A DNA stretch of 64,000 nucleotides. It comes from Heterotrichella gracilis (taxonomy: Eukaryota > Sar > Xanthophyceae > Tribonematales > Xanthonemataceae). The position numbers and the translations under genes are program-made. Shown here piece after piece: positions 19,524 through 57,792 of the stretch (its first letter is position 1; each line of letters starts with the position of its first letter). A model generated the notes under the pieces. It saw only the letters and a program-made list of their open reading frames with translations, ran no database searches and had not been told where the DNA came from. Where the stretch lies: assembly GCA_032358255.1 (NCBI GenBank), contig JAULBX010026052.1, positions 1 to 64,000 on the forward strand, read 5' to 3'.

Positions 19524-19661
19524 CTTCGGTGGCAGCCTGATGCGAGGGAAGGAGTGCATCGCCCCCTCGGTGAAGTTGCATGTGACACCCTCGCATGCGT
19601 TGGATGTGTCGGTCATCATGTGAGCGCGCCGCCGTAGGCTCTTAAGGCCCTCCTTGTGCTC
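19524..19661 (-). pseudogene. Orphan duplicate of alanine aminotransferase exon 8
   Basis: On the minus strand, 19661 to 19524 gives exactly 138 bases (46 codons), the same length as exon 8 of the alanine aminotransferase gene at 23072-22935. It has no stop, and carries both an acceptor (CGCACAG before GAG) and the donor (AAG before GTGCGGGC). The protein differs at only about five positions (for example Arg to His, Glu to Lys, Phe to Ser and Tyr to His), while [13 protein letters not shown] is retained. It lies 3.4 kb beyond exon 8 and about 2.5 kb past the stop codon of the gene. None of the other eight exons was found around it. I read it as a solitary copied exon, not a full pseudogene. 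It could still be spliced in a read-through transcript. Confidence 0.85.
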
Positions 19662-20245
19662 CTGTGCGGCGAGGGTTTAGTCAAGGCGGGCAGGGGTTGG
19701 GTTAGGGTTTTGTGCAGGGTGTGCATGGTGGCCTGCCCTTGAAAAGCCCCTACTTAGATACTTGGCAATGGCGCGTGTTGCAGTAGGGGCGGTGGTGGTC
19801 GCCAGTCAGTGATTAAACCTGGGGTAACCACAGCACTATTGCAAGTGCCATCGCCATATTCAGAGGGGCAAGACAGGGATCCCAACTTACAACAGCACAA
19901 CTTCGATAGCATATTCAGGGACGCATCACGCCCTGGAGACAGCTTGGTTATTGCAAGTCATGGAAGGTCAAAGGCAGCTCCGCATCTATCCTAGCGGAAC
20001 CCCAGGCCCGCACACAAATCAACCCTAGCAAACCCTAGAAGACACTCCCCCCACTTGGAACACTGTAGAGCCATGTGCACAGGCAAGACAAACATAGGAG
20101 ATGACAGCAGGTTGTTGTTGACACGCAAACAAGCCTTCAACCTTGAAAAGAAGCTGTCACTGGCTTACGACAATCACCCTGCCACTTGCCCACCAGCCTT
20201 ACCTTCAGGCAGAAATGTAGTACACTACATCAAGCGCGCACCAGG

Positions 20246-56500: not shown

Positions 56501-57792
56501 GTTGCAAAGGTGGTACAAGCAGTCCCAGTGCTAACTGGTAAAAGTCATCTGCACGTGTGGCAAGTTGCCACTGGCCAAAACCCCCCATGGTGTGCCCCCC
56601 CCCCCCTCCCCACCCAACCAGTACCCACCTGTAGCCTGCACCTGCAACCTCCTCGTCCAGAAGACCCACCCACACTTACTATCGTACCTAGAGCACATTG
56701 TGGGGCAACCTCCCCCCTTGCAGTGGATATAAACTCATAACTCATTGTACCACATATTCCTCTTGCCTCCGGTGCGCTACCCCCCACCAAGTATAGTATC
56801 CACCTGTAATCTGACCCCCTTTGAGGCCCCTCATCCACCAGTTCCACCTGCACGCACTAACATTTAGGGTTTAGGGTTTAGGCCAACACCCACTGGTCCC
56901 TACCTGTAGTCCGGCCCCTTTGACGCCACCTCCTCCTGCTGCAGCTCCACCCGTATGGGCCAGGCCGGATCCAGCACCACCCGCAGCCTACCCAGGCTGG
57001 GCAGGTACACCCCGTGCAGCTTGAACACAAGGTCGTCCTCAGTCACATACACGCCGTCGCGCACGGCAACCTCGCCCTGCGGAAGGCAATGCACTGGTGT
57101 CAACGACCTAGCCCAGGCAGTGCGACCAATGCTGCCCAGCGACCAACCCGCCTCCACAGTTCGTCATATGCACTATTGCAAACCAGCGGGCTGGGCAGTT
57201 TTGTGGTGCTACCACTTTGTATGCGTGCCAGCGCGAGGAGTGGGTGTGCCAATGTGCATGGTGTGGCAAGGGTTGGTCACTTGTGTGCGCTCACCTCCAC
57301 GTCGTGCACCCCAGGCTCTTCGGACTCTGAGGTTTTGAGGTGGAAAATGAGGAGGCCATCCAGCTTCTTGAGCAACCTAACCCTGCCCAGCTGGTCTGAG
57401 TTGTCCTCCCGTTTCCACCTGCCTCGGTATGTGCCAGTCACATTCTGTGGTGGTTGAAGCGCTGTATGTGTGGGTCCGCCAGTGATAGGTGGTGCAGTAA
57501 CCTGCACAGGCAGGCAACCAACCAATCAGCACCCACCTGTGGTCCATTGCCAGGCACTTTAACACCACAAGCTCCAATTTCCAAGCTCCAAGAGTGGTAT
57601 ATGATAGCCATCCAGTGCAGCCAATCGATGGATACTCCTTACCTCATAATTACCGTCGAGGACAGTGTGGTTGCGTGTAGATGGAAGGGCGACTTGTGCG
57701 TTGGAGTAACTGACCAGCAGCAGCAGGACCAAGGCTTGGGCCAGGGCCACGAGGGTTTGGTTTGACAGTGAGTGTCTGCCATGCCGGTGCAT
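53564..57792 (-). CDS. Transmembrane RING-H2 E3 ubiquitin ligase, FLY1/Tul1 family
   Basis: Nine minus-strand exons, 57792-57643, 57444-57295, 57076-56904, 56459-56225, 55958-55803, 55458-55332, 55022-54803, 54420-54195 and 53875-53564, join in phase to 582 residues. A signal peptide (residues about 10-33, LVALAQALVLLLLVSYSNA) is followed by a lumenal domain with N-glycosylation sites and PRYRKTCSFSMDM. Several membrane helices come next (LLITAISFIQVLLLI, then AFATAAFFEFVIFAIFEMRY, YLLFPLFSFWVPQIV, ATRLVLPMYLLL). A cytosolic RING-H2 domain ends the protein: Cys533 (CVIC), PCAHFFHPHC, and CPTCRR ending at 575. Family knowledge: yeast Tul1 and plant FLY1/FLY2 sit in Golgi/endosome membranes and ubiquitinate membrane proteins; FLY1 affects pectin methylation in seed mucilage. 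Copies of the exon 3 and exon 7 ends lie in neighbouring introns. Confidence 0.94.
54553..54705 (-). repeat. Two intronic copies of the FLY1-like exon 7 end with donor
   Basis: The true exon 7 end (plus about 54781-54835: GGGCACAGTGCTGCATGCGCAC, then TGCAGCTGGTAGGTTGCCAG) is echoed at about 54663-54702 (GGGCACAGCTGCAGCTGG, then GGGTGGCCAGCATGC) and at about 54553-54598 (CATATGCGCACTGCCACATC, then TGGTAGGTGAGCAG). Both lie in intron 7. Confidence 0.6.
56600..56853 (-). repeat. Two intronic copies of the FLY1-like exon 3 end with donor
   Basis: The true exon 3 end reads VELQQEEVASKGPDYR on the minus strand and stops at a donor (TACAG before GTAGGG, 56904). About 56803-56853 reads VELVDEGPQRGSDYR before TACAGGTGGATAC, and about 56625-56676 reads VGLLDEEVAGAGYR before TACAGGTGGGTAC. 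Each keeps a usable GT donor. A third, more diverged, copy lies upstream at 57500-57573. Confidence 0.75.
57500..57573 (-). repeat. Upstream copy of the FLY1-like exon 3 end, in intron 1
   Basis: On the minus strand this reads ELVVLKCLAMDHR before CACAGGTGGGTGCTGATTGG. The sequence after its donor is very like that after the copy at 56600-56676 (GTGGGTACTGGTTGG), showing that the duplicated unit includes intron sequence and has spread to both sides of exons 2-3. Confidence 0.6.

Follow-up and report, generated by a model that had tools for sequence, protein, structure and literature searches.

Direct duplications at exon edges, often separated by telomeric repeats, in the xanthophycean alga Heterotrichella gracilis

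In Heterotrichella gracilis, short direct duplications of local sequence are concentrated at exon edges, and in a large minority of cases the two copies of the duplicated segment (X) are separated by a filler of telomeric repeats, giving the form X-(TTTAGGG)n-X. The duplications had been noticed in an earlier, sequence-only reading of the same DNA, to which the telomeric filler is an addition. We propose, with a probability of about one half, that these structures derive from staggered breaks at exon edges, followed by overhang fill-in and by frequent telomeric addition before joining.

The window, that is, the whole stretch of 64,000 nucleotides, corresponds to bases 1-64000 of contig C354, in an assembly of 68.5 Mb and 903 contigs. 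Beside it, 280 kb were sampled from six contigs, and 304 kb were kept after removal of contig C1 (894 kb, sampled at 20001-60000), which was excluded as bacterial-looking on account of its dense long open reading frames, also contains few telomeric words, and was tallied apart in the shuffle and telomeric 7-mer counts. Judging by the sequence of this contig, the assembly appears to contain DNA from a second genome, of a companion or contaminant. Contig C10 was used in gene-model training, the 166-pair shuffle comparison, the first reading of young cases, the 7-mer densities, the count of 89 tracts and the analysis of tract orientation by position, and it contributes one tract to the filler inspection and to the microhomology set (27 tracts). 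It was left out of the 264-kb set, from four contigs, that served for the junction-straddling test, the edge counts by both scans, the counts at 85% identity or above, the filler scores, the intron-versus-intron comparison, the GT/AG and reading-frame tests, the test of 389 introns for intron gain and the 70-event 7-mer test. Gene models were predicted ab initio, with training on the 304 kb and without RNA, and comprise 58 genes and 499 exons, with a median confident exon of 150 bp and a median intron of 294 bp. The genes of the window are eukaryotic and rich in introns. Pfam backs all six of those in which duplicated edges had been described, encoding alanine aminotransferase (ALT), FolD, a class I amidotransferase, a DUF3700 protein, a fucosidase and a FLY1-like protein, and for FolD the whole conserved part of the spliced protein can be aligned with a solved homologue.

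Each of these six genes holds at least one duplication event, in agreement with the assertion that all of them carry diverged copies of exon edges. In window coordinates, the features are as follows.

19519..19669, minus strand: ALT, displaced penultimate exon, copied together with the splice-site flanks on either side (93% identity to 22930-23080; a longer match covers 19514-19729)
22930..23080, minus strand: ALT, functional penultimate exon (22935-23072) with flanks, from the gene model; the Pfam aminotransferase match lies in the N-terminal part of the model
23726..23776, minus strand: ALT, functional acceptor-side segment of exon 23596-23784 (76% to 23830-23877)
23791..23828, no strand: ALT, telomere-like filler between copies, from sequence inspection
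23830..23877, minus strand: ALT, intronic copy of the exon edge, partner of 23726-23776
24759..24798, minus strand: ALT, second decoy copy of a donor edge (78% to 24950-24990)
24833..24891, minus strand: ALT, first decoy copy of the donor edge (73% to 24947-25004)
24947..25004, minus strand: ALT, functional donor edge (exon 24974-25221), from gene model and self-match
26512..26594, minus strand: ALT, functional acceptor edge (exon 26346-26552), from gene model and self-match
26623..26704, minus strand: ALT, intronic copy of acceptor edge 26512-26594 (73%)
28441..28503, minus strand: FolD, copy of the end of the last exon, located past the gene (76% to 28553-28614)
29287..29321, minus strand: FolD, functional acceptor edge, junction 29305/29306; the spliced protein aligns across the junction with the solved FolD homologue
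29332..29362, no strand: FolD, telomere-like filler between copies, from sequence inspection
29370..29404, minus strand: FolD, intronic decoy copy of the acceptor edge (83%)
35375..35402, plus strand: class I amidotransferase, decoy acceptor copy (89%; functional copy 35447-35474)
35620..35690, plus strand: class I amidotransferase gene model, acceptor-edge copy (79%; second copy 35717-35787)
45371..45397, plus strand: DUF3700 gene, copy of the intron end before exon 45464-45694, intron side only (89%; other copy 45437-45463)
45994..46187, plus strand: DUF3700 gene, acceptor edge in 2.8 copies of 71 bp (TRF, blastn)
51679..51745, minus strand: fucosidase, acceptor edge (82%; second copy 51848-51913)
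54665..54696, minus strand: FLY1-like gene, intronic copy of a donor edge (81%; functional copy 54799-54830)
56802..56951, minus strand: FLY1-like gene, donor edge in the form X-filler-X (copies 56802-56848 and 56902-56951, telomeric run 56863-56882 between them)

Within 19524..57573, telomeric filler is limited to three of these events (ALT 23726/23830, FolD 29287/29370 and FLY1-like 56802/56902). The description of the copies as straddling exon-intron junctions applies to many of them, but not to 23726/23830, 28441/28553 or 45371/45437. Likewise, the copies are local and direct, as expected of the short tandem duplications originally described, but many pairs hold a spacer instead of being directly tandem, and the displaced ALT copy is a whole exon located some 3.4 kb past the functional one. 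A larger, two-part tandem duplication (~77% identical, distance 1.15-1.3 kb) is also seen at 921-3252, with many telomeric 7-mers in its span.

The contention that such duplications are too frequent for chance is borne out by the shuffled controls. In the window, blastn reports 14 direct local self-matches (score ≥40, distance ≤4 kb) and none in 12 block-wise dinucleotide shuffles; at the same score there are five inverted matches, every one of them a palindrome at distance 0. Over the 304 kb, 166 direct local pairs with scores of at least 32 compare with a mean of 0.75 in four shuffles, and inverted repeats likewise exceed their null (82 versus 20.25, score 32). Chance similarity and low complexity are ruled out by these shuffles, together with the inverted-orientation controls of the telomere-first test described below. 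The window has palindromes or hairpins (25-78 bp, 74-96%) at 8155-8205, 9987-10040, 20479-20505, 39226-39301 and 47966-47990.

The duplicated segments are ~25-115 bp long. Among the blastn events of the 264-kb set, the median unit is 69 bp and the median distance between copies is 119 bp; the duplications are thus direct, local and of the size of an overhang. That blastn gave no copies closer than 58 bp is an artefact, since matches near the main diagonal go unreported, and a 33-bp minisatellite between ALT and the next gene (19062-19164, 3.1 copies, 97% matches) was recovered by blastn at distance 66 only. Because blastn is blind to very close copies, the scan was repeated without gaps, and edge counts from the two scans are reported side by side. 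In the ungapped scan, 16 of 139 matches lie at distances of 20-57 bp. They include 11 non-overlapping short-distance events, of which seven are exon-exon, two intron-only, one intergenic and one an exon edge with telomeric filler, and just one of the 44 edge events has copies nearer than 58 bp.

The concentration of events at exon edges is seen in both scans of the 264 kb. With blastn (score ≥36, distance 40-450, collapsed to non-overlapping events), 85 events were obtained, 56 of them joining an exon edge and intron, seven intron-only, 11 exon-exon, eight intergenic and exonic, three mixed and none purely intergenic. The independent ungapped scan (distance 20-250), which found nothing in a shuffle, yielded 86 events: 44 at edges, 13 intron-only, 17 exon-exon, eight intergenic and exonic, three mixed and one intergenic. 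The edge excess amounts to 8 to 1 by blastn and, less markedly, to 3.4 to 1 without gaps. Edge events are spread over 21 of 48 genes and, when an abutting junction is required, involve donors and acceptors equally (23 and 23). Furthermore, 71 of 151 pairs (score ≥32, array copies counted separately, 264 kb) straddle a junction, or 47% against 28.5% (97.5th percentile 36.8%) over 200 random shifts, which is the comparison of junctions with random positions that the sequence-only reading had put forward. Over the 264 kb, drawn from four contigs, there is hence support for the genome-wide process duplicating exon edges that this reading had postulated.

The filler between copies is frequently telomeric. 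Contig C70 starts with a pure (CCCTAAA)n run, which identifies TTTAGGG as the organism's own telomere repeat, and three exact TTTAGGG units match the assembly 834 times (longer runs being counted repeatedly), while the same pattern written backwards matches it 0 times. When fillers are aligned to the TTTAGGG repeat, 32 of 77 reach a telomere score of 16 or more, as do 7% of 600 control intron segments; telomeric fillers are thus a large minority, not the whole. Of the 45 below that score, 16 belong to events with copies at least 85% identical, and two of these (C3:10268 and C5:20095) present telomeric words within the copies instead. Near-pure repeat fillers of 29-37 bp, equal to the terminal repeat of C70, occur at four loci (L039, L044, L046 and L048), where they touch or almost touch both copies. 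A molecular-clock test for equal age of filler and copies returned no correlation (rho -0.21, p=0.24, n=32): the telomere score does not decay along with the identity of the copies.

The same association is apparent in word counts. In introns, no words are as strongly enriched as telomeric 7-mers (6.67 per kb versus 0.87 when shuffled, 7.7 times), which reach 2.41 versus 0.57 per kb in intergenic sequence and 0.46 versus 0.21 per kb in exons. Their intronic density is eight times higher inside event spans than in other introns (34.5 versus 4.33 per kb), and 35 of 70 events contain at least one of them, compared with 17.4 expected and a maximum of 29 in 2000 random placements. On the sense strand, telomeric tracts are nearly always C-rich just upstream of acceptors and run both ways just past donors; among edge events, the acceptor side has 11 C-rich and two G-rich tracts, and the donor side eight of each. 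Since a G-rich tract would place an AG upstream of the acceptor, the orientation bias looks like a splicing filter acting on a strand-symmetric process, and it probably reflects splicing constraints. Telomeric runs as pure splicing signals are an insufficient explanation, given that such runs also flank duplications.

The association was also approached from the telomeric side, with 20 interior loci containing an exact repeat of at least 24 bp, taken as the first in contig order outside the sample, whose flanks were compared with repeats masked. The X-(TTTAGGG)n-X form is present at 10 of the 20 loci at score 32 and at 12 of 20 at score 28, and none of the 20 has an inverted flanking match of 28 or more. 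Direct duplications flank 10% of random intron positions (n=400) and 3% of random intergenic positions (n=300). Of the 89 tracts in the sample, 77 are intronic, and 30 of these 77 are flanked by direct duplications and one by an inverted match; flanking direct duplications are found at 0 of 9 intergenic and 0 of 3 exonic tracts.

In the break-repair model that we favor, exon edges would be preferred sites for the origin or survival of breaks with long staggered ends, of ~25-115 bases. After fill-in of the two overhangs the ends would be joined, leaving the overhang segment X on each side of the join, and telomeric repeats would often be added to a 3' end before fill-in. In combination, telomeric insertion at a break and duplication by fill-in would generate X-(TTTAGGG)n-X. 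The staggering itself is deduced; the filler could come from telomerase or its template, and the fill-in may be of the CST/Pol alpha type. The assembly contains a Telomerase_RBD match above cut-off, in two pieces on C626, and Ku-family matches that are putative host genes. Where X carries a splice site, the copy beside the exon body would remain in use and the other would lie inert in the intron, with the protein unchanged. In such events a complete site stays beside the exon body, so that they can persist; this accounts for their persistence, but not fully for edge events outnumbering intron-only ones. A bolder version of the model, which we put forward tentatively and regard as less probable than its alternatives taken together, holds that exon edges might be hotspots of staggered breaks which the machinery of chromosome ends, through telomerase addition and C-strand fill-in, heals as a matter of routine. 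Introns would then lengthen, and now and then originate, as scars left by telomerase, and for that reason telomere repeats would be the top over-represented intron words. Of the processes first suggested for these duplications, repair of breaks is the best supported, whereas simple slippage and introner-like insertion did not stand up.

Template switching, a somewhat unlikely alternative, would start from telomere-like tracts close to exon edges, at which replication stalls or the DNA breaks; an extended or slipped 3' end would then re-anneal to a short telomere-like match lying upstream and recopy X, producing X-telomeric-X and, through repetition, arrays. Arrays of three to four units are indeed found at C354:86318-86553, C354:106571-107008 and L040, and at C354:86401, L044 and L048 the end of the filler shares 5-6 bases with the sequence preceding X; serial arrays and these matched joints at three sites leave room for template switching as a way of recopying X. 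The telomere-to-X joint shows at least four matching bases in three of 27 tracts, some of them from one array, versus 0.40 expected by swapping (p=0.003), and the other joint does so in one of 27, with the mean giving p=0.07. Against a general role, 19 of the 27 tracts have no such microhomology at the telomere-to-X joint, and template switching leaves the non-telomeric fillers unaccounted for.

A second, unlikely alternative invokes ordinary tandem duplication, uniform along the genome, with the edge pattern emerging from the purging of exon-only duplications and the slower divergence of exon copies. Tandem duplication is a known mutational class and a survival filter must act in part, as the orientation of C-rich tracts near acceptors agrees; the edge excess also falls to 44:13 when gaps are disallowed. 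Nevertheless, a simulation combining random placement, purging of exon-only duplications and slower divergence of exon copies predicts an edge to intron-only ratio of about 0.56 (0.53-0.61), against the 8.0 (blastn) or 3.4 (ungapped) observed. The count of 44:13 departs from placement alone with p=5e-14, and from placement with a 2.5-fold detection advantage for edge copies with p=2.5e-5. Young copies are edge-biased as well, with 22 edge and three intron-only events at 85% identity or above (p=1e-9 versus placement alone, and still p=8e-5 with the same 2.5-fold advantage), and purely intergenic events number 0 of 85 by blastn or 1 of 86 without gaps. Furthermore, telomeric filler is left unaccounted for by uniform duplication, and, together with the spacers, it also speaks against the simple replication slippage or pure tandem duplication initially considered.

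The remaining alternatives are more improbable still. Exonic duplications might have been turned into introns, one copy supplying the donor and the other the acceptor, with edge copies as relics. Such gain by tandem duplication is expected to leave donor and acceptor regions copied in register, and this is seen in three of 389 introns (C354 107664-107862 and, in sample coordinates to which 20000 is added for the contig, C40 34679-34812 and C40 34899-35006), compared with 0.0 per 389 in five re-pairings. The pattern is limited to those three introns, and the second copy, in 41 of the 46 cases at junctions, has its own GT or AG within a longer intron, instead of ending at the other splice site; as a general account, intron gain is hence improbable. 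It is more doubtful yet that selection maintains the copies, whether for use as alternative splice sites or for a role as splicing enhancers. The retention of GT or AG in those 41 of 46 cases (264 kb), in keeping with the claim that copies preserve these dinucleotides, exceeds the 72% expected from intron-side identity (p=0.005), and some decoys could be in use. The reading frame shows no corresponding preference: the sequence gained by use of the decoy site has a length divisible by three in 17 of the 46 cases and lacks stop codons in 11, much like control donors (57 of 250 stop-free), which goes against the suggested seeding of alternative splice sites, in the sense of coding use. Lastly, a mobile introner-like element bringing the filler is the least credible source, for while filler does enter introns and a ~100-bp interspersed segment is common to three of them, the intron-versus-intron comparison (sense strand, telomeric repeats unmasked) gave 30 matching pairs only, with no intron in more than three and thus no abundant family, and the ~25-115 bp duplications far exceed the 3-9 bp target-site duplications that accounts of characterized introner families give (PMC9860276).

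The shared ~100-bp segment lies at ~49872-49971, in intron 49776-50474, has a counterpart of 95% identity within a C40 intron and another of 86% in C5, and is a possible small mobile element. Separately, two tandem paralogues on C354 (84004-87535 and 89333-92920) share one exon, together with its duplication, at 98.5% identity over 259 bp, in a block that ends at a splice site; their other exons are 79-88% identical and their introns cannot be aligned. The block reads as if produced by conversion, and an alignment of the paralogues for polarity did not settle the order of events.

The source of intron sequence is a long-standing question. Extrapolation of the 56 edge events in 264 kb to the 68.5 Mb assembly, apparent bacterial sequence included, suggests that the genome may hold some ten thousand such scars. 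Because the scars retain a recognizable source segment, and often a telomeric tag, intron enlargement becomes testable as a mutational process. The observations would also tie telomere maintenance to gene structure, a link that literature searches did not find for algal introns. Searches of titles and abstracts, mostly outside subscription journals, likewise returned no report of telomeric filler between duplicated exon edges.

Several known systems share part of these features. In the tandem-duplication model of intron gain (PMC4974935; Hellsten et al., as cited there), a local duplication at splice sites likewise leaves the protein unchanged; as outlined in that source, the duplicate makes a new intron, whereas here it mostly enlarges an existing one, and three of 389 introns fit gain. 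Novel introns of Drosophila and Daphnia with direct repeats have been ascribed to end joining (PMC2809761; Daphnia as cited there), the repeats at their splice sites being attributed, as here, to the repair of uneven breaks, but those given in the figure legends measure 8-17 bp, with one larger case (Bap170), and the origin of the filler is described there as unknown. Introners likewise add sequence to the introns of many genes, with target-site duplications of 3-9 bp in the families characterized (PMC9860276), while the introns compared here have no common family, and the structures are therefore not introners.

The closest parallels lie in the repair of breaks with telomeric components. In mammals, interstitial telomeric tracts are described as insertions at double-strand breaks, some of them with target-site duplication, and telomerase has been proposed to act at the break (PMC2246262); Table 1 of that work lists target-site duplications in six of 130 rodent and four of 25 primate inserts. 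As far as that description extends, the mammalian tracts resemble those of H. gracilis in being short, internal and sometimes accompanied by a duplication; here, by comparison, duplications flank 10 of 20 tracts, measure ~25-115 bp and in many cases are situated at exon edges. Small tandem duplications, in turn, are reported to follow from CST-guided Pol alpha-primase fill-in of induced 3' overhangs of at least 43 bp, in a process that needs CST-Pol alpha-primase and Ku (PMC8355091). There too an overhang-sized segment is directly duplicated, through telomere fill-in factors and Ku; the breaks were induced in cultured cells, and the passages describing them mention neither telomeric filler nor a link to splice sites. 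The exon-edge duplications of H. gracilis would act like the combination of these two systems, telomeric insertion at breaks plus duplication by fill-in.
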